From positions 1 through 64,000 of the forward strand of contig JAQXOE010000010.1 in NCBI GenBank assembly GCA_029098505.1: 64,000 bases of DNA, in the 5' to 3' direction. This document shows positions 11,776 through 22,885 of the stretch, in pieces. The notes beneath the pieces are model-generated. The model worked only from the letters and a program-made list of their open reading frames with translations, made no database searches and was not told the DNA's origin. The DNA comes from Bacteroidales bacterium (lineage in GTDB: Bacteria; Bacteroidota; Bacteroidia; Bacteroidales; UBA932). The stretch's first letter is position 1. Each line of letters starts with the position of its first letter. Both the position numbers and the translations under genes were made by a program.

Positions 11776-12260
11776 TGTCTGAGTGGCGTCACATATTGAT
11801 ATCCGCTCTGTTTGTGGCTGTTGCTTTTTCGTTGTTCTCCTGCTCCGAACCTCAGTCATATGAGGAATTCGTGCGTACGGGCAGCAAGGATGAGGATGGA
11901 TTGTACCGCTTTACCCTCAATATGAGTGACAGTCTCGCCGTTTACGACCTCAGCTTCTACTCGCGAATAGAGTGCGGCAATGGCAAGTTGGCGGAATTGC
12001 GGGACTTTCCTCTCGACATCACGCTGCAGTCCCCGAGCGGCAGGAAATATTGGGAAAAGGTTTACTTCCCAGTACATCAGAGCTCAAAAGGCTCAAACTT
12101 CTACTCGCATCAATACATATTGCCCTACCGCAGCGGCATTATACCTGACGAGGCGGGGGAATGGGAACTGGCGGTGCGCATTGATGCGGACGGCCATATT
12201 CCGGGCTTCAGGGGCCTGGGTGTGATATTGGAAAAGAAAGGATGGGACACAAAAAACTAA
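11775..12260 (+). CDS. gldH: gliding motility lipoprotein GldH-like
   Basis: Lipoprotein signal, size, conserved position after PSP1 gene. Confidence 0.8.
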   Translation: MSEWRHILISALFVAVAFSLFSCSEPQSYEEFVRTGSKDEDGLYRFTLNMSDSLAVYDLSFYSRIECGNGKLAELRDFPLDITLQSPSGRKYWEKVYFPVHQSSKGSNFYSHQYILPYRSGIIPDEAGEWELAVRIDADGHIPGFRGLGVILEKKGWDTKN

Positions 12261-13129
12261 AGAAATTCGCTGAGAACGAGACCTTCAAATGTCTCCTTCA
12301 GCCGTCTGCGGAGGAATTGCTCGCGGACGGATATTTCAATTTGCGCGACCACGAAATCAAGGGACGCTGGAATGAGCTGATGTTTGAAAAGGACCAGCCC
12401 ATCATACTTGAGCTTGGCTGTGGCAAGGGGGAGTACACCATTGACCTGGCACGCCGCAATCCCCAGTTCAACTACATCGGCGTCGATATCAAGGGAGCCC
12501 GTTTGTGGAAGGGAGCGAAATATGCCAGCGAGAATGCTATGGGCAATGTCGCCTTCCTGCGCACCCGCATCGAGTTCATCACCGCCTTTTTTGCAGAAAA
12601 TGAAATCTCGGAAATCTGGCTCACCTTCTCCGACCCCCAGATGCGCAGCGAGAACAGCCGTTTGACCTCTCCTCTCTTCCTCGAACGCTACCACTCCTTC
12701 CTCAAACCAGGAGGCCTGGTGCACCTGAAGACCGACAGCCGCTTCCTTTATGAATACTCTCACGCGGTGGCAATCCAGAACCGCCTCGAAATAATTGCCT
12801 CGACCAAAGACCTTTATGCCACCTCTTCGGAGCAATTGACCGGTGCCTGCGGACAGGGAGCGAAGCTCCCGGAAGATACAGTGAACGCTCTTTATGAGGT
12901 GCAGACTTTCTACGAGAAGCTCTTCCTCGAGCAGGGATACAAGATAACATATCTGTCTTTTGTCATTGACCACGAAGGCCGCTTCGAGCATCCGGAAGGC
13001 TTTGACGAGGAGTATTGGCGTTCGGTGGAGGGCCCGCGCCAGATTTTCGGACACGATACAGCCGAGACCCGCCGCCAGAAACTGGCAGCAAAGGAAAAAC
13101 AAGGAAATTATGCCGAAAGCAAAAAGTAG
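12242..13129 (+). CDS. trmB: tRNA (guanine-N7-)-methyltransferase
   Basis: ILELGCGKGEYTIDLAR, FSDPQ, FLKPGGLVHLKTD motifs. Confidence 0.93.
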   Translation: MGHKKLKKFAENETFKCLLQPSAEELLADGYFNLRDHEIKGRWNELMFEKDQPIILELGCGKGEYTIDLARRNPQFNYIGVDIKGARLWKGAKYASENAMGNVAFLRTRIEFITAFFAENEISEIWLTFSDPQMRSENSRLTSPLFLERYHSFLKPGGLVHLKTDSRFLYEYSHAVAIQNRLEIIASTKDLYATSSEQLTGACGQGAKLPEDTVNALYEVQTFYEKLFLEQGYKITYLSFVIDHEGRFEHPEGFDEEYWRSVEGPRQIFGHDTAETRRQKLAAKEKQGNYAESKK

Positions 13130-13559
13130 AATACAAATCAACAACCGCAGGGCTTCGTTCGATTACGAGTTCCTGGAGACCTACGATGCCGGAATAGTGC
13201 TCGTGGGTTCGGAAATCAAATCCCTGCGTATGGGCAAGGCCTCATTGGCAGACGCTTTCTGCTATTTCGTCAATGGGGAGCTCTATGTGAAGGGGATGAA
13301 TATCTCCACCTATTTCTGGAGTTCCTGGAACGGTCACGAGCCGGCGAGGGACAGGAAACTGCTGCTTACCAAAAGGGAGCTCAGGCATCTCCAGCAGTCG
13401 GTGAAACTGAAGGGACTCACCATCGTCGCCATCCGCGCATACATTGCGGACAATGGCTATGCGAAGCTGAAGATAGCCCTAGCCAAGGGAAAGAAGGAAT
13501 ACGATAAGCGACAGTCCATCAAGGAGAAGGATATGCGCCGCGAGCTTGACCGCGGCTAA
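13110..13559 (+). CDS. smpB: SsrA-binding protein SmpB
   Basis: NNRRASFDYEFLETYDAGIVLVGSEIKSLR; start trimmed to 13110, overlaps trmB by 20 bp. Confidence 0.95.
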   Translation: MPKAKSRIQINNRRASFDYEFLETYDAGIVLVGSEIKSLRMGKASLADAFCYFVNGELYVKGMNISTYFWSSWNGHEPARDRKLLLTKRELRHLQQSVKLKGLTIVAIRAYIADNGYAKLKIALAKGKKEYDKRQSIKEKDMRRELDRG

Positions 13560-13571
13560 AGTGATATTGCA

Positions 13572-14375
13572 ATGCCGAAAGTGAGAATTCCTATTGCGGC
13601 TGAATTGCCGCAGCCTGAAGTGATTGACGTTGAGGCTGTTGTCCGGGATTATCGGGAGGGTCTCATCGACCTGGTGTGCGTTCTCGGCCCTACGGCATCG
13701 GGAAAGACCAGATATGCTGTGGAGTTCGCGCGCAGGATTAATGCCCTGATGGGGGCATCGGTAGCGGAGATCATTTCTGCGGATTCGCGCCAGGTCTACA
13801 GGGGGATGGATATCGGCACCGGCAAGGATATCTGCGAATACGGGGAGATTCCATACCATATGATAGATATACAGCCGGCCGGTGCGAAGTACAATGTCTA
13901 TGAGTATCAGAAGGATTTTGTGAAAGTGTACCGCGACATACTCTCGCGTGGGGCTTTCCCGATACTCTGCGGCGGTACCGGCCTTTATATCGAGGCTGCG
14001 ACTTGCGGCTATGATTTCAACAAGGAGAATCCGAGCGTAAATCCTGTCGAGCTTCCGCATAAGTGCTTCTATATAGGCACTTTAGTAGATAGGGATACCC
14101 GCAATGCCCGCATAGATGCCCGCCTTAGGGCCCGTCTTGAGGAGGGCCTGGTAGAGGAGGTGAAGGGGCTTCTGGACAGCGGCATCAGCTCCGAGGACCT
14201 CATCTATTACGGCCTGGAGTACAAGTTCGTGACCCAGCACGTGCTCGGAATCTTGAGCTATGATGAGCTCTTCACCCTTCTTTCGAACGCCATTCACCAG
14301 TTTGCCAAAAGACAAATGACCTGGTTCCGAGGAATGGAACGCGATGGCGTCGTCATTCACTGGACCCAGGTCTGA
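13572..14375 (+). CDS. miaA: tRNA dimethylallyltransferase (short MiaA form)
   Basis: GPTASGKTRYAVE, SADSRQVYRGMDIGTGK, GGTGLYIEA. Confidence 0.93.
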   Translation: MPKVRIPIAAELPQPEVIDVEAVVRDYREGLIDLVCVLGPTASGKTRYAVEFARRINALMGASVAEIISADSRQVYRGMDIGTGKDICEYGEIPYHMIDIQPAGAKYNVYEYQKDFVKVYRDILSRGAFPILCGGTGLYIEAATCGYDFNKENPSVNPVELPHKCFYIGTLVDRDTRNARIDARLRARLEEGLVEEVKGLLDSGISSEDLIYYGLEYKFVTQHVLGILSYDELFTLLSNAIHQFAKRQMTWFRGMERDGVVIHWTQV

Positions 14376-14413: not shown

Positions 14414-15733
14414 TCAGAGGGAGAAGGCTTCGCGTATAGCATCCACTGCATCAAGTTTCTCCCAAGCGAAGAATTCAACTTCGCGCTGCACTTCCTGTCC
14501 GTCACGTATAAGAGTGAGTGTCTTGGTATAAGGCTTCTTTCCGAAGTGGCCGTAGGCTGCAGTGGCCCTGAAAATAGGATTCTTGAGGCCGAACTTGCTG
14601 ATAATCGATGCCGGACGCAGGTCGAACAGGTCCTTGACCTTGGCAGCGATGTATGCGTCGGTCGCTTCACCCCTTTTGTCTGAGATGCCATTGGTCGAAG
14701 GAGCGCTTACGTGGGCTGAACCGTAGGTGTCCACAAAGACGCTGACTGGCTCAGGCACTCCAATGGCGTACGCCACCTGAACGAGACATTCGTCAGCAAC
14801 GCCTGCCGCTACGAGATTCTTGGCAATGTAGCGGGCCGCATAAGCCGCGCTCCTGTCCACTTTTGAAGGGTCTTTTCCCGAAAATGCACCACCGCCGTGG
14901 GCACCTCTTCCACCGTAGGTGTCGACGATGATTTTTCTTCCGGTAAGGCCGGTGTCGCCCGCAGGTCCTCCGATGACGAACTTGCCGGTAGGGTTGACGT
15001 GGAGGATGAAATTGCCATCAAAAAGCTTGGCAGTCTTCTCCGGGAGGGAGGCTATCAGTCTCGGTATCACGATATTGCGTACGTCGTTCTCGATTCTGGC
15101 GCGCATTGCCTCATCCGTATCGAACTCATCGTGCTGGGTGCTCAGGACTATGGTGTGCACTCTCAGAGGCTGGTGTCTTCCCGAAAATTCGATGGTGAAC
15201 TGGGATTTCGAGTCCGGGCGGAGGTAAGGCATCAGCTCCGGCTCATTGTGCCTGATGTCAGCGAGTATCATCAGGATTCTGTGCGAGAGTGAGAGGGCGA
15301 GAGGCATATACTCGTCCGTATCGGTGCAGGCATAGCCGAACATCATTCCCTGGTCTCCGGCTCCTTGGGCATCGACGCTGTCATTGCTCTTCTCGGCCGT
15401 TATGGCGCGGGTCACTCCTCTGTTGATGTCCTCGCTCTGGCCGTGGATGCGGTTGATGATCTCGCAGGAAGCGGCATCGAAACCGTACTCCTTCCTGTTG
15501 TAACCGATATTGTCAATGACCTCACGTATGGTCTGCTCTACATCGATGTTAGAGCATATTGAGCTGGTCTCTCCTCCTACCAGCACAAGGTCTGTGGTGC
15601 AGAATGTCTCGCAAGCTACCTTCGCGTCAGGGTCCTGGCGGAGGTAGGAGTCGAGTATGGCGTCCGATATCTGGTCCGCTACTTTGTCCGGGTGTCCTTC
15701 TGACACCGATTCACTGGTGAATAAGTAATTCAT
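14414..15733 (-). CDS. metK: S-adenosylmethionine synthase
   Basis: FTSESVSEGHPDK..., GAGDQGMMFGYA, GGGAFSGKDPSKVDRSAAY; start trimmed to M at 15733. Confidence 0.97.
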   Translation of the reverse strand: MNYLFTSESVSEGHPDKVADQISDAILDSYLRQDPDAKVACETFCTTDLVLVGGETSSICSNIDVEQTIREVIDNIGYNRKEYGFDAASCEIINRIHGQSEDINRGVTRAITAEKSNDSVDAQGAGDQGMMFGYACTDTDEYMPLALSLSHRILMILADIRHNEPELMPYLRPDSKSQFTIEFSGRHQPLRVHTIVLSTQHDEFDTDEAMRARIENDVRNIVIPRLIASLPEKTAKLFDGNFILHVNPTGKFVIGGPAGDTGLTGRKIIVDTYGGRGAHGGGAFSGKDPSKVDRSAAYAARYIAKNLVAAGVADECLVQVAYAIGVPEPVSVFVDTYGSAHVSAPSTNGISDKRGEATDAYIAAKVKDLFDLRPASIISKFGLKNPIFRATAAYGHFGKKPYTKTLTLIRDGQEVQREVEFFAWEKLDAVDAIREAFSL

Positions 15734-15746
15734 TGTTTTGATCAAA

Positions 15747-15779
15747 AATAAAAAAACTCCTGCATGAAATGCGGAGTTT
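15747..15779 (-). terminator. intrinsic terminator in the metK 5' leader (probable riboswitch expression platform)
   Basis: Minus strand AAACTCCGCATttcATGCaGGAGTTT followed by TTTTATTTTT, about 14 nt upstream of metK ATG. Confidence 0.8.
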
Positions 15780-15815
15780 ACCTGAAGCTTCTATATAGCG
15801 TCAAAAATTCTGTAT

Positions 15816-15868
15816 GGATTTTTTAGCATTTTTTAAAGTGGTTGCAAGCAGGCAAATCTTTCCACATT
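15816..15868 (-). ncRNA. SAM-II-like riboswitch aptamer upstream of metK
   Basis: Minus strand GTGG-AAA-GATTT-GCCTGC-TTGCAA-CCAC-TTTAAAAAAT-GCTAAAAA-ATCC: P1 plus GAUUU, UUGCAA, GCUAAAAA in SAM-II order. Confidence 0.78.
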
Positions 15869-15881
15869 CTCATTGTGACTG

Positions 15882-15889
15882 CAAAGATA
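15882..15889 (-). promoter_or_regulatory. -7 box TATCTTTG of metK leader (TTTG -33 about 20 bp upstream)
   Basis: Reverse complement caaagata; places the transcription start just before the aptamer. Confidence 0.65.
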
Positions 15890-15984
15890 CTCTCTTTTTC
15901 CCTATACTCCAAAAGGAATGTTAAAATTTTGTTAAATGCTGATAACTAAATCGTTGTAGTTTTCCGTACCAGCATTTTTTGCTA

Positions 15985-16024: not shown

Positions 16025-19000
16025 ATGTCAAAATCCATCAGAATTGCGCTGACTCTGATTTCAGCGCTGGTGTTTGTCCTATCCGCAAACGCCCAAGTGA
16101 CCACTTCTACCATCAGCGGTAGGATTACTGATGACGCCGGTGCAGTTGCAGGTGCTCCAATAGTTGCAACCTACAATCCAAGCGGCGTCATTTATTATGG
16201 CATCTCCGACAAGAACGGAGCATACCGTATCAACGGCGTTAATCCGGGCGGTCCGTACACCTTGACCGTTGATATGCTCGGATACCGTAGTATCACCATT
16301 ACCGAGGTATATGCTTCCCTCGCGGAGAACAATGTCATTGACTTTATACTTGAAGAAGAATCCATAGGCCTCGAGGCTGCGGTCTTCACTGCTGATGCCC
16401 TTGATTCGAAAATGAATATCTCACGTTCAGGTATCGGAACCTCCATCAGCTCTTCAAAAATGTCGTCAATTCCGACTGTCAGCCGCAGTATGAACGACAT
16501 TATGAAACTCACTCCACAGGCTTCGACCACCACTGCAGGCTTCGCTGTCGGCGGAGGCAATTACCGCGGCTCATCAGTGACCGTCGATGGAGCTGCTTTC
16601 AACAATGCTTTCGGTATCGGTTCCAATCTTCCTGCCGGCGGTTCGCCAATCTCACTTGACGCCATCGAGCAGATGAGCATCAATGTGACTCCTTTCGATG
16701 TGCGCCAGTCCGGTTTCCAGGGAGGTGCCATCAATGCCGTTACCAAGCAGGGTACCAACGAGTACCACGCTTCAGCCTACAATCACTACACTTCTGACAA
16801 GGTCAGGGGAGGTATGGTTGCCGGTGAGGAAATCAAGAATACCAAGATACTCAACAATACCATCGGCTTCACGGTTGGAGGCCCTATAGTCAAGAACAAA
16901 CTCTTCTTCTTCCTCAATGCAGAGTATACGATGGATGAGATTCCGGGCTCTTCATACATTGCCCGCGAAAATGCCGGCGCCCCTTGGGCATACTCTCCTG
17001 ACGGTCCGAAGAACGTAAACCGTCCTACCGTGGCCCAATTGTCAGAAATCTCATCTTTCCTTTCGAGCCAGTTCAACTACAGTCCGGGACGTTATCAGGG
17101 CTATTCGCTCAGCACCCCTGACTATAAGCTTCTTGCCCGTCTCGACTGGAACATCAATGCGAACAACAAGCTCAATGTGCGTTTCAGCAATACCCACAGC
17201 TACGGCTCGAACCCTCCTTCATCTTCGATGTCGCCTATAGGCGGAACAAACTCCAGCTACAAGAACATCAACGGCGACAAGGTCTATCTTAACCGCTATT
17301 CGGCAGGCCGTCAGTCGCAATATGCAATGTACTTTGAGTCAGCACGTTACTTCCAGGAGGCCAACTTCCTTTCACTTGCTGCCGAGCTCAATTCACGCAT
17401 CTTCGACTCCAGGGGGAACAATACTCTCCGCCTCACCTGGTCTCACCAGTATGAGCCGCGTTCATATGTGGGAGACTACTTCCCGACTGTGGATATCCTG
17501 AGCAATGAGGCTGTGAGCGGTTCTGACACATATGCGCACCTCACCACCTTCGGAGTGGACCCTTTCACCTATGGCAATCTCCGTGATGTCCAGACAGTTA
17601 TTGCTACCGATGAACTTTCCTATACTCTTGGAAAGCACAACCTCATCGCCGGTGCCCAGCTTGAATGGAACAAGGCTGTCAACGGCTTTATGCAGGGAGG
17701 CGCAGGCTGGTATATCTATGATTCTTGGCAGAGTTTTGTCGAGGATGTCACCAAGCCTTCAGCCAGCACCGGTCCTGTGGCGTTTATGATTACCCACGCC
17801 AATCTGGACGATCCGTCCAAGCAGACCTTCCCTGCATTCAATTATACCCAGGCCTCCCTCTATGCGCAGGACGAGCTCAATCTGAGCGACTACTTCAAAC
17901 TCACCGCAGGTCTCCGTTTCGAGCTGCCTTTCATCACCATCCCTACAGACAATAACAACAAGGAGTTCGCAAATCTCGGTTCACTTGAAAAGAACAAGGA
18001 CAAGTATGCCGGAAGCTCATTTGACGGTTTGCGCACCGATATGGTTCCTAAGGCTTCACTCAGCGTTTCTCCACGTATCGGCTTCAACTGGGACGTATTC
18101 AAGGACAGAAGCATCATAGTACGCGGAGGTACAGGAATTTTCACCGGCCGCATCCCTAACGTATGGCTTGTTTCGGCGATAGGAAACTCCAACTGTCTCC
18201 AGTACCAGTACATCAACAAGAATGTAGTGGGTTCGGGAGCCAATACCGCAGGCATACACTTCACCAACAACAGGGATGAGATTATCAAGCAGCTTTATTC
18301 CGGCAATGCTTTCCAGAAGCAGGACCTTGCTGCTCCTACCGCCACCACTATCATTGCCAATGACCTTAGGATGCCATCGTCCTGGAAGTCTTCGGCTGCC
18401 ATTGACCTTAACTTCCCTGAGGGCGTAAAAGCTTCATTCGAAGGCGTTTACAGCTATAATTTCAATGAAGTTTACGCTACGTCTCTGGGTTATAGGAAGG
18501 AGGGTACACTCGCAGCTCTTCCTGGAGAGCCTGGCTCACGCGACAAGTGGGTTGACGAAGGTATCGTGAACAGCACTGGCAGCAAGATGCACGGCTACTA
18601 TGTGCACAATGTGAAGGACCTCCACGGCCGTTATTATTCCCTCACCGCCCAGCTCAGCAAGGACTGGAACTGGGGCCTCAGCGTGATGGCAGCTTACACC
18701 CACTCTAACTCTCTCACCGCTTCTGACGGCAATGGAGACCAGATTTCAGAGTTTGCGAACATCTACACTATGAACGGCTGCAACTCGCCTGAACTCGGAT
18801 ACTCAAGCTATGTCACTCCGAACCGCGCTATTGCAAGCATCAGCTACACCATCAACGAGGGCCGTCACGCCGCTACCAAGCTCGGTCTCTTCTATGAGGG
18901 TTACAATATCGGTTACTACAGCTCTTATTCGTACTCAAGGATGTCCTATCTGATGAACAATGTCAGCGGTGCGGGCTCTGCGTCACAGCTCATTTATATC

Positions 19001-19462
19001 CCTACCGACGAAGAGGTGGACAAGATGCCTTTCGCTGTTCTCAAGACGGGAGCTGACAACAAGACCTACTGGGAGGCTGCTCCTCAGATGGCATCCGAGT
19101 ACAAGGACTTCCTCGGAAGTGACAAGTATCTCAAGAACCACAGGGGCGAGTATATGAAGAGAAATGCCATATCTGCTCCTTGGCTCAACAGATTCAACCT
19201 CAAGCTCGCTGAGGAGTTCTATTTCAATATTGCCGGGAAGAAGCACACTCTCGAGCTTTCTGCCGATATCAGCAATCTTGGCAATCTCCTCAATGACAAT
19301 TGGGGTGTTTACAAGCAGATCAGCACCACCTCCATCCTCAGCTACCAGACCGATGCTACCGAAAAGGTCAGCAAGTACACCTTCACCAGACCAGAGTGGA
19401 GAAATCTCACCAATCTGGCTTCGACCTGGTCGGCGCTTTTCAGCGTCCGCTACAGCTTCTAG
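16025..19462 (+). CDS. TonB-dependent receptor, carboxypeptidase-regulatory-like N-terminal domain (paralogue 1)
   Basis: Signal peptide, TTSTISGRITDDAGAVAGAPI..., plug and barrel, terminal VRYSF. Confidence 0.9.
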   Translation: MSKSIRIALTLISALVFVLSANAQVTTSTISGRITDDAGAVAGAPIVATYNPSGVIYYGISDKNGAYRINGVNPGGPYTLTVDMLGYRSITITEVYASLAENNVIDFILEEESIGLEAAVFTADALDSKMNISRSGIGTSISSSKMSSIPTVSRSMNDIMKLTPQASTTTAGFAVGGGNYRGSSVTVDGAAFNNAFGIGSNLPAGGSPISLDAIEQMSINVTPFDVRQSGFQGGAINAVTKQGTNEYHASAYNHYTSDKVRGGMVAGEEIKNTKILNNTIGFTVGGPIVKNKLFFFLNAEYTMDEIPGSSYIARENAGAPWAYSPDGPKNVNRPTVAQLSEISSFLSSQFNYSPGRYQGYSLSTPDYKLLARLDWNINANNKLNVRFSNTHSYGSNPPSSSMSPIGGTNSSYKNINGDKVYLNRYSAGRQSQYAMYFESARYFQEANFLSLAAELNSRIFDSRGNNTLRLTWSHQYEPRSYVGDYFPTVDILSNEAVSGSDTYAHLTTFGVDPFTYGNLRDVQTVIATDELSYTLGKHNLIAGAQLEWNKAVNGFMQGGAGWYIYDSWQSFVEDVTKPSASTGPVAFMITHANLDDPSKQTFPAFNYTQASLYAQDELNLSDYFKLTAGLRFELPFITIPTDNNNKEFANLGSLEKNKDKYAGSSFDGLRTDMVPKASLSVSPRIGFNWDVFKDRSIIVRGGTGIFTGRIPNVWLVSAIGNSNCLQYQYINKNVVGSGANTAGIHFTNNRDEIIKQLYSGNAFQKQDLAAPTATTIIANDLRMPSSWKSSAAIDLNFPEGVKASFEGVYSYNFNEVYATSLGYRKEGTLAALPGEPGSRDKWVDEGIVNSTGSKMHGYYVHNVKDLHGRYYSLTAQLSKDWNWGLSVMAAYTHSNSLTASDGNGDQISEFANIYTMNGCNSPELGYSSYVTPNRAIASISYTINEGRHAATKLGLFYEGYNIGYYSSYSYSRMSYLMNNVSGAGSASQLIYIPTDEEVDKMPFAVLKTGADNKTYWEAAPQMASEYKDFLGSDKYLKNHRGEYMKRNAISAPWLNRFNLKLAEEFYFNIAGKKHTLELSADISNLGNLLNDNWGVYKQISTTSILSYQTDATEKVSKYTFTRPEWRNLTNLASTWSALFSVRYSF

Positions 19463-19615: not shown

Positions 19616-22600
19616 ATGTCCAATTCATTTAAAAGATTTTTGACCTCGTGCGCCGTTCTCTTTATGGGAATTATGGCTTTCGCGCAGGGAACAACTTCTT
19701 CAATGACCGGTGCCATAACAGACAGCAACGGTGACGCCATCGTCGGCGCTGTCGTTGTAGCTGTTCACACACCGTCAGGCTCCCAGTATCACGGCATTGC
19801 CGGAAACAACGGTTACTATACCATCAACGGTATGCGTCCAGGCGGCCCTTATGTCGTTACTGTGTCAACCCTTGGCTACAAGAGCGTAAGATTCGAGAAT
19901 CTTACTCTTAAACTTGGCGAAACTTCCAATCTCGATGCATATCTCGAGGAGGATACCCAGATGCTCAATGAGGTTGTAGTCGTAGCTGATGCCGCTTCAC
20001 GTTTCACAACCGAGAAAACAGGCGCATCAGTCAATGTTTCTAACCAGGATATGATGAATGTGCCAAACGTAAGCCGCAGCATTTCAGCGATTACCAAGCT
20101 TTCACCATATGCAAACGGTATGAGCTTCGCAGGAGGTGACGGCCGTTCAACCAACTTCACAGTTGACGGTGCGAACCTGAACAACAACTTCGGTCTTTCA
20201 TCAAGCCTCCCTGGTGGCGGTACCCCTATCTCGCTTGACGCTCTCGAGGAGATGCAGATTGTAGTCGCTCCTTATGACGTACGTCAGAGCAACTTCGTAG
20301 GCGGTGGTATCAATGCCATCACCAAGTCAGGTACCAACTCATTCCAGGGCACTGCCTATACTTATTATGCTGACGAGAACTTCCGTGGCAACAAGATCAA
20401 CGGTGAGGATCTCGGCGAGCGCAAGATGGAGCAGGACAAGACCTTCGGTTTCACCCTCGGCGGACCTATCATCAAGGACAAGCTCTTCTTCTTCGTAAAC
20501 TTCGAGACACAGAAGAAGCCTAAGCAGGTAATCGAGTATCAGCCTTCTAAAGACAAGCAGGCAGTGCTTGAGAAGATCAGCCAGAAGCTCCAGAAGGATT
20601 ATGGCTACAATCCTGGTTCATATACAGATTTCCCTGGCGGAACAGACAATATGAAGATTCTTGCCCGCCTCGACTGGAATATCTCAGACGACCACAAGCT
20701 CAGCTTGCGCTTCAACAAGACCAACAACCAGTACTGGTATGCTCCAAACGGAAACTCTTGCGATGACAACTTCCGCAACAAGGGTTTCAACCGTTCAAGT
20801 GAGGTCTCTCATCCTTTCTCAAGCAATATGTACTCACAGATGAGCAACGTAATGTCGTTCGCAGGTGAGCTCAACAGCCGCTTCGGCTCGAAGATTGCCA
20901 ACCGCCTCCTCGCTACTTACACCAACATCAACGACCAGCGCGGCAGCAACTCCGATATCTTCCCTCATATCGACATTATGACCGACGGTGACTACTCAAG
21001 CGGAAACTTCATTCCTTACACCTCTCTCGGTTACGAGCTCTTCACTTACAACAACGGTGTGCTCAACAAGAATCTCCAGATTCAGGATGACCTTAGCTTC
21101 TATCTTGACAATCACACAGTTACAGCAGGTTTGAGATTCGAGATGATGGATGCGCTCAACTCTTATATGAGAAACGGAACCGGTTACTACCGTTATGCAA
21201 GTGCCGAGGATTTCCTCAATGGCGCCCTTCCTCTCTCATTCTGTCTCACTTACGGTTATGCCGGAAATGAGAATCCTGCAGGTGAGGTTAAGTACAATCA
21301 GTACGCAGCATATGCTCAGGACGAGTGGAAGCCTGTACGTAACTTCAAGCTCAGCTATGGAGTACGTGCCGAGCTCATTTCCTTCGACAACTCTGCTATT
21401 GTGACCAATCCTAACATCCTCGCTATCGACTACAACGGCAGACATATTGACACAGGCGCTTGGCCTACCAGCCGTGTGCAGCTCTCTCCTCGCGTAGGTT
21501 TCAACTGGGATGTCAATTCTGACAAGAGCCTCATCGTACGTGGCGGTCTCGGTCTCTTCCAGGGCCGTCTCCCTCTCGTATTCTTCACCAATATGCCTCA
21601 GTACTCAGGTATGATTCAGGGTGGATATACCGCTTCAGCCCAGATCAAGGACGGCAAGCTTGTTTACTCTGATGACGTTAGGGCAGCTCTTGAGAAGCTC
21701 ACCGCAGGCGGCAAGTTTATGACAGATGTCAGTGAGATCGTCAAGACCCTCAACCTCCCAACTTCTCCTACCGCTGAAAGTGCTGGTTACGGTTCACAGA
21801 GCTATATCAGTGGTGTTGACCCTGATTTCCGTATGCCTCAGCAGTTCAAGACTTCTTTGGCAGTTGACTGGAAACTTCCTGTAAACTTCCCTCTCACTGT
21901 TACTGCAGAGGGTATGTACAACAAGACCATCTGGGGTATTATGATGGAGGACTGGGCTCTTGACAACAACAGCGCAAATCTCAAGTACTTCAATGGCCCT
22001 GACAAGCGTGTGATGAACATCAACGACAGCAAGATTGACAATAGAAATGCATATGTAATGACCAATACCCGCAAGGGCTATGGCTACTCTGCAAACCTCA
22101 GCGTTAATGCTGAGCCTGTCAGAAACCTCCGTTTGATGGCTGCATATACCTATACCGAGTCAAAGGAGCTTTCAGGTATGCCTGGCTCTGCTGCAAACTC
22201 TGTATTTACAGGTCTTCCAACAGTGAACGGTGCCAATATGACTGACCTTCAGAGAAGCCAGTATGTTGTTCCTCACAAGCTTATGGGTAGCGTGAACTAC
22301 ACCATCCCTTCAATTAACCTCCACCTCAACCTCTACTACTCAGGTTCATCTGCTCAGGGTAACAGCTATATCTACTCTAACGATATCAACGGCGACAGAA
22401 ACGCCACCGATCTTATCTACATCCCTGCTTCTAAGAACGAGATCAACTTCAAGACTGAAGCTGATGCAGATGCATTCTGGCAGTTCGTTGAGGCTGACAA
22501 GTACCTCAGCAGCCACAAGGGCCAGTACGCAGAGGCATATGCAGCACGTTCTCCTTGGTATCACAGATTCGATTTCAGCGTTTCTAAGGATTTCAACTTT

Positions 22601-22885
22601 ACCATCGCAGGAAAGACTCACGGATTCCAGCTCAGCGCTTCAATCGACAATATCGGCAACCTCCTCAACTCAAAGTGGGGTACTCGCAAGATGTCTGCAT
22701 ACCAGACTTCTCTTAACGGAACCATTGCCCCTCTCAAGTATGAGGGCGTGAATGCGAACAACGAGCCTGTATTCTCTATGAACAAGGCAGCTGATGTGCT
22801 TCCTGTTCAGAACTATATCAAGACCTATATCAATTCTTCAGAGTGCTGGCATGCACTTATCGGAATCAAGTACTTCTTCAAGTAG
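19616..22885 (+). CDS. TonB-dependent receptor (paralogue 2)
   Basis: 1089 aa, same N-terminal domain and barrel as neighbours. Confidence 0.9.
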   Translation: MSNSFKRFLTSCAVLFMGIMAFAQGTTSSMTGAITDSNGDAIVGAVVVAVHTPSGSQYHGIAGNNGYYTINGMRPGGPYVVTVSTLGYKSVRFENLTLKLGETSNLDAYLEEDTQMLNEVVVVADAASRFTTEKTGASVNVSNQDMMNVPNVSRSISAITKLSPYANGMSFAGGDGRSTNFTVDGANLNNNFGLSSSLPGGGTPISLDALEEMQIVVAPYDVRQSNFVGGGINAITKSGTNSFQGTAYTYYADENFRGNKINGEDLGERKMEQDKTFGFTLGGPIIKDKLFFFVNFETQKKPKQVIEYQPSKDKQAVLEKISQKLQKDYGYNPGSYTDFPGGTDNMKILARLDWNISDDHKLSLRFNKTNNQYWYAPNGNSCDDNFRNKGFNRSSEVSHPFSSNMYSQMSNVMSFAGELNSRFGSKIANRLLATYTNINDQRGSNSDIFPHIDIMTDGDYSSGNFIPYTSLGYELFTYNNGVLNKNLQIQDDLSFYLDNHTVTAGLRFEMMDALNSYMRNGTGYYRYASAEDFLNGALPLSFCLTYGYAGNENPAGEVKYNQYAAYAQDEWKPVRNFKLSYGVRAELISFDNSAIVTNPNILAIDYNGRHIDTGAWPTSRVQLSPRVGFNWDVNSDKSLIVRGGLGLFQGRLPLVFFTNMPQYSGMIQGGYTASAQIKDGKLVYSDDVRAALEKLTAGGKFMTDVSEIVKTLNLPTSPTAESAGYGSQSYISGVDPDFRMPQQFKTSLAVDWKLPVNFPLTVTAEGMYNKTIWGIMMEDWALDNNSANLKYFNGPDKRVMNINDSKIDNRNAYVMTNTRKGYGYSANLSVNAEPVRNLRLMAAYTYTESKELSGMPGSAANSVFTGLPTVNGANMTDLQRSQYVVPHKLMGSVNYTIPSINLHLNLYYSGSSAQGNSYIYSNDINGDRNATDLIYIPASKNEINFKTEADADAFWQFVEADKYLSSHKGQYAEAYAARSPWYHRFDFSVSKDFNFTIAGKTHGFQLSASIDNIGNLLNSKWGTRKMSAYQTSLNGTIAPLKYEGVNANNEPVFSMNKAADVLPVQNYIKTYINSSECWHALIGIKYFFK

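Follow-up and report, generated by a model that had tools for sequence, protein, structure and literature searches.

A SAM-II riboswitch in the metK leader of a Bacteroidales bacterium, with a terminator and a predicted antiterminator formed by the aptamer 5' half

The metK leader located in the stretch of DNA analyzed here (64 kb, hereafter the window) is very probably (about 0.85) a SAM-II riboswitch which acts as a transcriptional OFF switch through a terminator and an 18-bp antiterminator. Computational analysis established the identity of the aptamer, its target gene, the terminator and the complementarity and covariation of the antiterminator. The source genome is of the Bacteroidales type and amounts to 2.15 Mb in 68 contigs.

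The class of the aptamer was determined with cmscan. The RF01726 model (SAM-II long loop) matches the minus strand at 15813-15871, end to end, with 61.6 bits for a gathering threshold of 44 (E 2.1e-9 for the full 64 kb), and it is the sole Rfam match above gathering in the window. The SAM-II class had been proposed from the letters alone in an earlier account, the sequence-only reading; it passed this covariance-model check, and the sequence words on which it was based all lie on the minus strand where they had been placed. The parts of the aptamer are as follows:

15813..15871, minus strand: SAM-II (long loop) aptamer, RF01726 (cmscan, 61.6 bits)
15838..15865, minus strand: P1 stem and its loop, with GATTT and TTGCAA (Infernal alignment)
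15865-15862 and 15841-15838, minus strand: the two P1 strands, GTGG and CCAC
15858-15854, 15847-15842 and 15827-15820, minus strand: GATTT, TTGCAA and GCTAAAAA
15823..15847, minus strand: core pseudoknot P2, TTGCA 15847-15843 with TGC(T)AA 15828-15823 (read from the sequence, pairing predicted)

The binding-site words GAUUU, UUGCA and GCUAAA are all found in the correct order in this aptamer, which shares P1, GAUUU, UUGCAACC, AUGCUAAA and the phylum with the RF01726 consensus (Weinberg et al., 2010; PMC2864571), a family defined from Bacteroidetes and marine sequences. Among relatives, the sequence of P1 changes yet stays paired, as exemplified by GAGG/CCTC in L045, L046 and L077. The bases of the core P2 (UUGCA and UGCUAA) are present and near-invariant across leaders, an invariance which leaves covariation uninformative, and their pairing would be that of the known SAM-II fold. 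Judging from the model score and the core, on which class membership rests, the element is a SAM-II riboswitch, and this copy is likely to bind SAM. The second SAM-II model, RF00521, also aligns, although below threshold (24.5 bits for a cut-off of 36). Its A. tumefaciens metA member (Corbino et al., 2005; PMC1273637) and, as predicted from sequence, the window element are both SAM-sensing H-type pseudoknots preceding methionine or SAM genes; RF00521 elements control metA, metX or metZ, whereas the window element precedes metK.

The gene downstream of the aptamer and the upstream promoter elements are:

14414..15733, minus strand: metK, S-adenosylmethionine synthetase, 439 aa (NCBIfam TIGR01034 equivalog, 485 bits)
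15882..15889, minus strand: -7 box TATCTTTG (TAnnTTTG; sequence and family enrichment)
15910..15913, minus strand: TTTG, candidate -33 box, 20 nt upstream of the -7 box (read from the sequence)

The RF01726 match stands 80 nt 5' of metK. As shown by a search of the source genome, metK is present there in a single copy, and it follows the aptamer in nearly all the loci examined, which, with the TIGR01034 match, supports it as the target. Of 98 related leaders, 80 have the motif TAnnTTTG 5' of the aptamer, for 4.2 expected from shuffling. This -7 box is of the Bacteroidota type, a phylum from which the -33 box consensus is also known, and its position sets the start of transcription a few nucleotides upstream of P1.

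Between the aptamer and metK, the leader contains a terminator composed of the following elements:

15754..15779, minus strand: terminator hairpin, 11 bp with a bulged A at 15761, -10.6 kcal/mol
15779-15769 and 15765-15754, minus strand: hairpin arms AAACTCCGCAT and ATGCaGGAGTTT
15744..15756, minus strand: U-tract TTTTTTTATTTTT, whose first three T also close the hairpin

A generic promoter and terminator scan did not list the 15754-15779 hairpin, probably owing to the bulged A, and the hairpin was instead assessed by a fold-based search with shuffles. Out of 500 dinucleotide-shuffled versions of the region, only 2 equalled hairpin and U-tract together (15744-15779). The 11-bp hairpin and U-tract described in the sequence-only reading are therefore retained, while the distance of 14 nt before the ATG given there has to be corrected, the hairpin ending 20 nt from the ATG (15733). 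The second half of the U-tract extends to about 10 nt before this codon, and termination likely takes place here within the cell.

The terminator platform is further supported by its enrichment across the family. RF01726 is present in 271 of 300 genomes of the window's family, and in 26 of 198 genomes phylum-wide. Long leaders were defined by a spacing of 25 nt or more between aptamer and start codon. Of the 84 such leaders, 40 contain a U-tract preceded by a hairpin of -10 kcal/mol or stronger, for 2.3 expected, and the number rises to 47 when the threshold is set at -8 kcal/mol, for 6.1 expected. Leader counts are approximate because the regular expression used missed L067, L072, L082, L091 and several Bacteroides-type loci; in L010, L052, L058, L061, L084, L090 and L099, it caught an upstream GATTT instead.

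A translational platform, in which ribosomes would be barred from the start codon by the ATG-proximal hairpin or by the pseudoknot once SAM is bound, has nevertheless to be considered. Solved SAM-II examples are regarded as direct-occlusion switches, and a 2024 review places the class under direct ribosome-site occlusion (PMC10907184). In addition, seven leaders from the same genus (L024, L026, L035, L041, L042, L045 and L046) lack a terminator, the distance between aptamer and ATG being 2-14 nt. Such spacing leaves no room for a terminator, and in these leaders the switch seems to act on translation, suggesting that the mode of action of the same aptamer on metK, termination or start-site occlusion, has changed among close relatives. 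In contrast, the aptamer core of the window ends about 90 nt from the ATG, and its hairpin, which precedes a U-tract, stops 20 nt short of this codon. Several close relatives carry a similar hairpin 60-190 nt upstream of the ATG, a distance which favors termination over direct ribosome blocking. For the window, a translational platform is thus unlikely. Four other long leaders without a classical terminator (L003, L009, L027 and L069) have an A+T-rich hairpin ending 2-3 nt before the TTTATG or TTATG of metK; this hairpin may be a platform that covers the start site.

The transcriptional switch proposed here involves a helix formed by the aptamer and the terminator:

15767..15869, minus strand: antiterminator, 18 bp, GAATGTGGAAAGATTTGCCTG 15869-15849 with CAGGTAAACTCCGCATTT 15784-15767 (duplex energy, pair probability, covariation)

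Interrupted by bulges only at A15857 and A15859-15860, this duplex has a predicted energy of -19.5 kcal/mol, a value reached by 0.9% of the shuffles of the aptamer strand and 0.34% of those of the terminator strand, and its site is the optimum of a complementarity scan of the whole leader. For a transcript ending at 15767, before the terminator 3' arm is made, the helix has a pair probability of 0.998, which is still 0.91-0.94 after the hairpin can form. From that point, static folding energies, which omit the pseudoknot, SAM and folding kinetics, are nearly equal for the antiterminator (-21.9 to -22.5 kcal/mol) and for P1 combined with the terminator (-21.3 kcal/mol), and a bound ligand could hence tip the balance. 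As the antiterminator consumes the P1 5' strand, the loop GATTTGCC and the entire terminator 5' arm, it excludes aptamer and terminator alike; both prediction and comparison indicate this mutual exclusion with P1 and the terminator for the 18-bp helix (15849-15869 with 15767-15784).

Another antiterminator had been put forward in the sequence-only reading, namely AAAUGC (15831-15826) pairing with GCAUUU (15772-15767). Both segments are present and complementary over 6 nt, and the pairing, which overlaps the P2 3' strand, would be blocked by SAM. However, it has a pair probability of 0.000-0.001 for all lengths tested, 17% of shuffles contain a match as long, and at transcript end 15767 the 18-bp helix is favored over the corresponding state by 6.8 kcal/mol (-20.2 versus -13.4). 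Moreover, the aptamer 3' half, to which AAAUGC belongs, shows no excess complementarity to the terminator in relatives (mean z +0.19 in 48 leaders). This pairing is therefore highly improbable, and the 18-bp helix with the aptamer 5' half is, on sequence, folding energy and comparison of relatives, the better-supported antiterminator. A pairing of CCUGC from the loop with GCAGG from the terminator 3' arm, spotted by eye, was discarded, since the 3' arm is synthesized last and the 18-bp helix would by then occupy the 5' arm.

The 18-bp helix was also examined across relatives. In the 48 non-redundant leaders with terminators, complementarity to the terminator 5' arm is concentrated in the aptamer 5' half (mean z -1.84), and each leader's own arm performs better than arms swapped between leaders (p = 0.0008). 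The same comparison gave p = 0.010 within the window's genus, p = 0.007 for the CTCCGC type and p = 0.0095 for the AAATC type; shared ancestry is reduced in these permutation tests (by working within genus, within terminator type and on unique flank combinations) and not removed. For the aptamer 3' half, the within-group own-versus-swapped tests gave no signal (p = 0.15 and 0.71). L052 and L058, in which the aptamer segment is shifted, were kept in the 48-leader test, where they weaken the signal, and excluded from the within-genus test.

The helix recurs with unrelated terminators: those of the window's genus are of the CTCCGCAT type, and those of sister genera are of the GTCAAATC or AAATCTCTCC type, with an arm exactly complementary to GATTTGAC or GGAGAGATTT. 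In addition, changes in the bases flanking the aptamer are matched by changes in the terminator loop: AGAATGTGG with CCGCATTC, AATATGTGG with CCGCATAT(T), TATATGTGG with CCGCATATA and AAAATGTGG with CCGCATTT. These flanking bases, being just outside the aptamer, are unconstrained by SAM binding, and their covariation amounts to 88 paired cells versus 75.5 +- 2.8 (p <= 0.0002; p = 0.007 on 13 unique combinations). These data also bear on whether the hairpin could be a constitutive attenuator uncoupled from the aptamer, as was judged to be the case for the terminator following the SAM-II aptamer of S. meliloti metA (PMC9373788). Since the terminator 5' arm both complements the aptamer and covaries with it, across unrelated terminator types, an uncoupled attenuator is very unlikely.

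The excess of 5'-half pairing is absent in seven leaders with terminators (L016, L025, L029, L036, L037, L040 and L089). Either more than one platform design exists, or the finder chose the wrong hairpin in some of them. A further terminator type, CCACAAGC...CAGTCGCTTGTGG, occurs after SAM-II in L120, L124, L134, L159, L170 and L187, several of which are from Paludibacteraceae or Bacteroidales records; its arms resemble parts of the aptamer (CCAC and GACTGCTTG).

A mechanism can be proposed for the metK leader. Transcription would begin just upstream of P1. When SAM is scarce, the aptamer 5' half, comprising the P1 5' strand and GAUUUGCCUG, would pair with CAGGUAAACUCCGCAUUU upon its emergence, and the resulting 18-bp antiterminator would occupy the whole terminator 5' arm, allowing the polymerase to read into metK. 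When SAM is plentiful, its binding would lock P1 and the P2 pseudoknot, so that the 5' half would no longer be free. The terminator arm thus released would form the 11-bp hairpin which, with the U-tract, would stop RNA polymerase 10-20 nt before the metK start codon. The response would hence probably run from more SAM to termination, the net effect being feedback regulation by SAM of the enzyme that produces it. SAM-I (S-box) riboswitches of Firmicutes similarly control metK by SAM-dependent transcription termination, with an unrelated aptamer. While the SAM-I antiterminator uses the P1 3' strand, that of the window would use the P1 5' strand.

The aptamer of the window differs from the RF01726 consensus and from Bacteroides-type loci by lacking P2a, the outer part of the pseudoknot, in which the loop CUG is paired to a CAG. 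Among the leaders of the window's family, only 1 of 87 has the complement of this triplet after GCTAA, versus 8 of 12 loci from other families, and the Bacteroides-type loci L094, L095, L098, L099, L101 and L103 retain CUG...CAG. Despite this loss, the loop NCUGC, which includes the triplet, is still conserved in the family (window 15810-15851 and the 87 family leaders). A shifted or distant P2a, formed by CUG 15851-15849 with CAG 15812-15810 or with CAGG 15784-15781, was rejected, no consistent counterpart being found in relatives. P2a is an accessory portion of the pseudoknot helix; it is required in the A. tumefaciens metA SAM-II (PMC1273637), and SAM affinity is therefore not assured in a family devoid of it. 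On balance, we lean towards regarding the SAM-II of the window's family as a shortened form without P2a in which the 5' half, made up of the SAM-contacting loop GAUUUGNCUG together with the P1 5' strand, also serves as antiterminator, the switching helix thereby consuming the binding site, and in which the same aptamer and gene have moved between termination and start-codon occlusion within one genus.

The coupling of SAM-II to an intrinsic terminator on metK, singled out in the sequence-only reading, is supported by the present analysis but does not represent a novelty in kind, as such coupling was noted in 2005 (Corbino et al., 2005; PMC1273637), and terminators were subsequently reported to be the most frequent partners of SAM-II in alpha- and betaproteobacteria (Barrick and Breaker, 2007; PMC2258182). 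SAM-II riboswitches with terminators and SAM-II in Bacteroidetes (RF01726) are both known already. The S. meliloti metZ SAM-II (PMC9373788) is also predicted to act by intrinsic termination, with release of a short leader RNA; its gene and phylum both differ from those of the window. In the main texts consulted, no description was found of a SAM-II antiterminator using the P1 5' strand or of a SAM-II antiterminator in Bacteroidota, although the supplement of Weinberg et al. (2010) annotates predicted terminators and may contain part of this. Likewise, no experiment on a Bacteroidota SAM-II was found in the literature.

A SAM-II riboswitch predicted to terminate transcription of the SAM synthase gene, for which the antiterminator is defined and numerous natural variants exist within a single family, provides a ready set for testing how a small pseudoknot controls the polymerase. 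SAM-II is usually taught from a single translational example (metX), and this family offers a view of one aptamer changing its mode of action between close relatives. It would also represent a direct feedback loop on SAM supply in common gut and rumen bacteria. Within the window alone, the leader is an ordinary, well-annotated regulatory element. Divergent from metK, two adjacent and related outer-membrane beta-barrel proteins with a carboxypeptidase-regulatory-like N-terminal domain (PF25183, PF13620) are encoded on the plus strand at 16025-19462 and 19616-22885. Convergent with metK, compact genes at 12242-14375 (plus strand) encode a tRNA m7G methyltransferase-like protein (PF02390), SmpB (PF01668) and a tRNA IPP transferase (PF01715); the PF02390 and SmpB frames overlap as listed, a consequence of the early TTG taken as the SmpB start.
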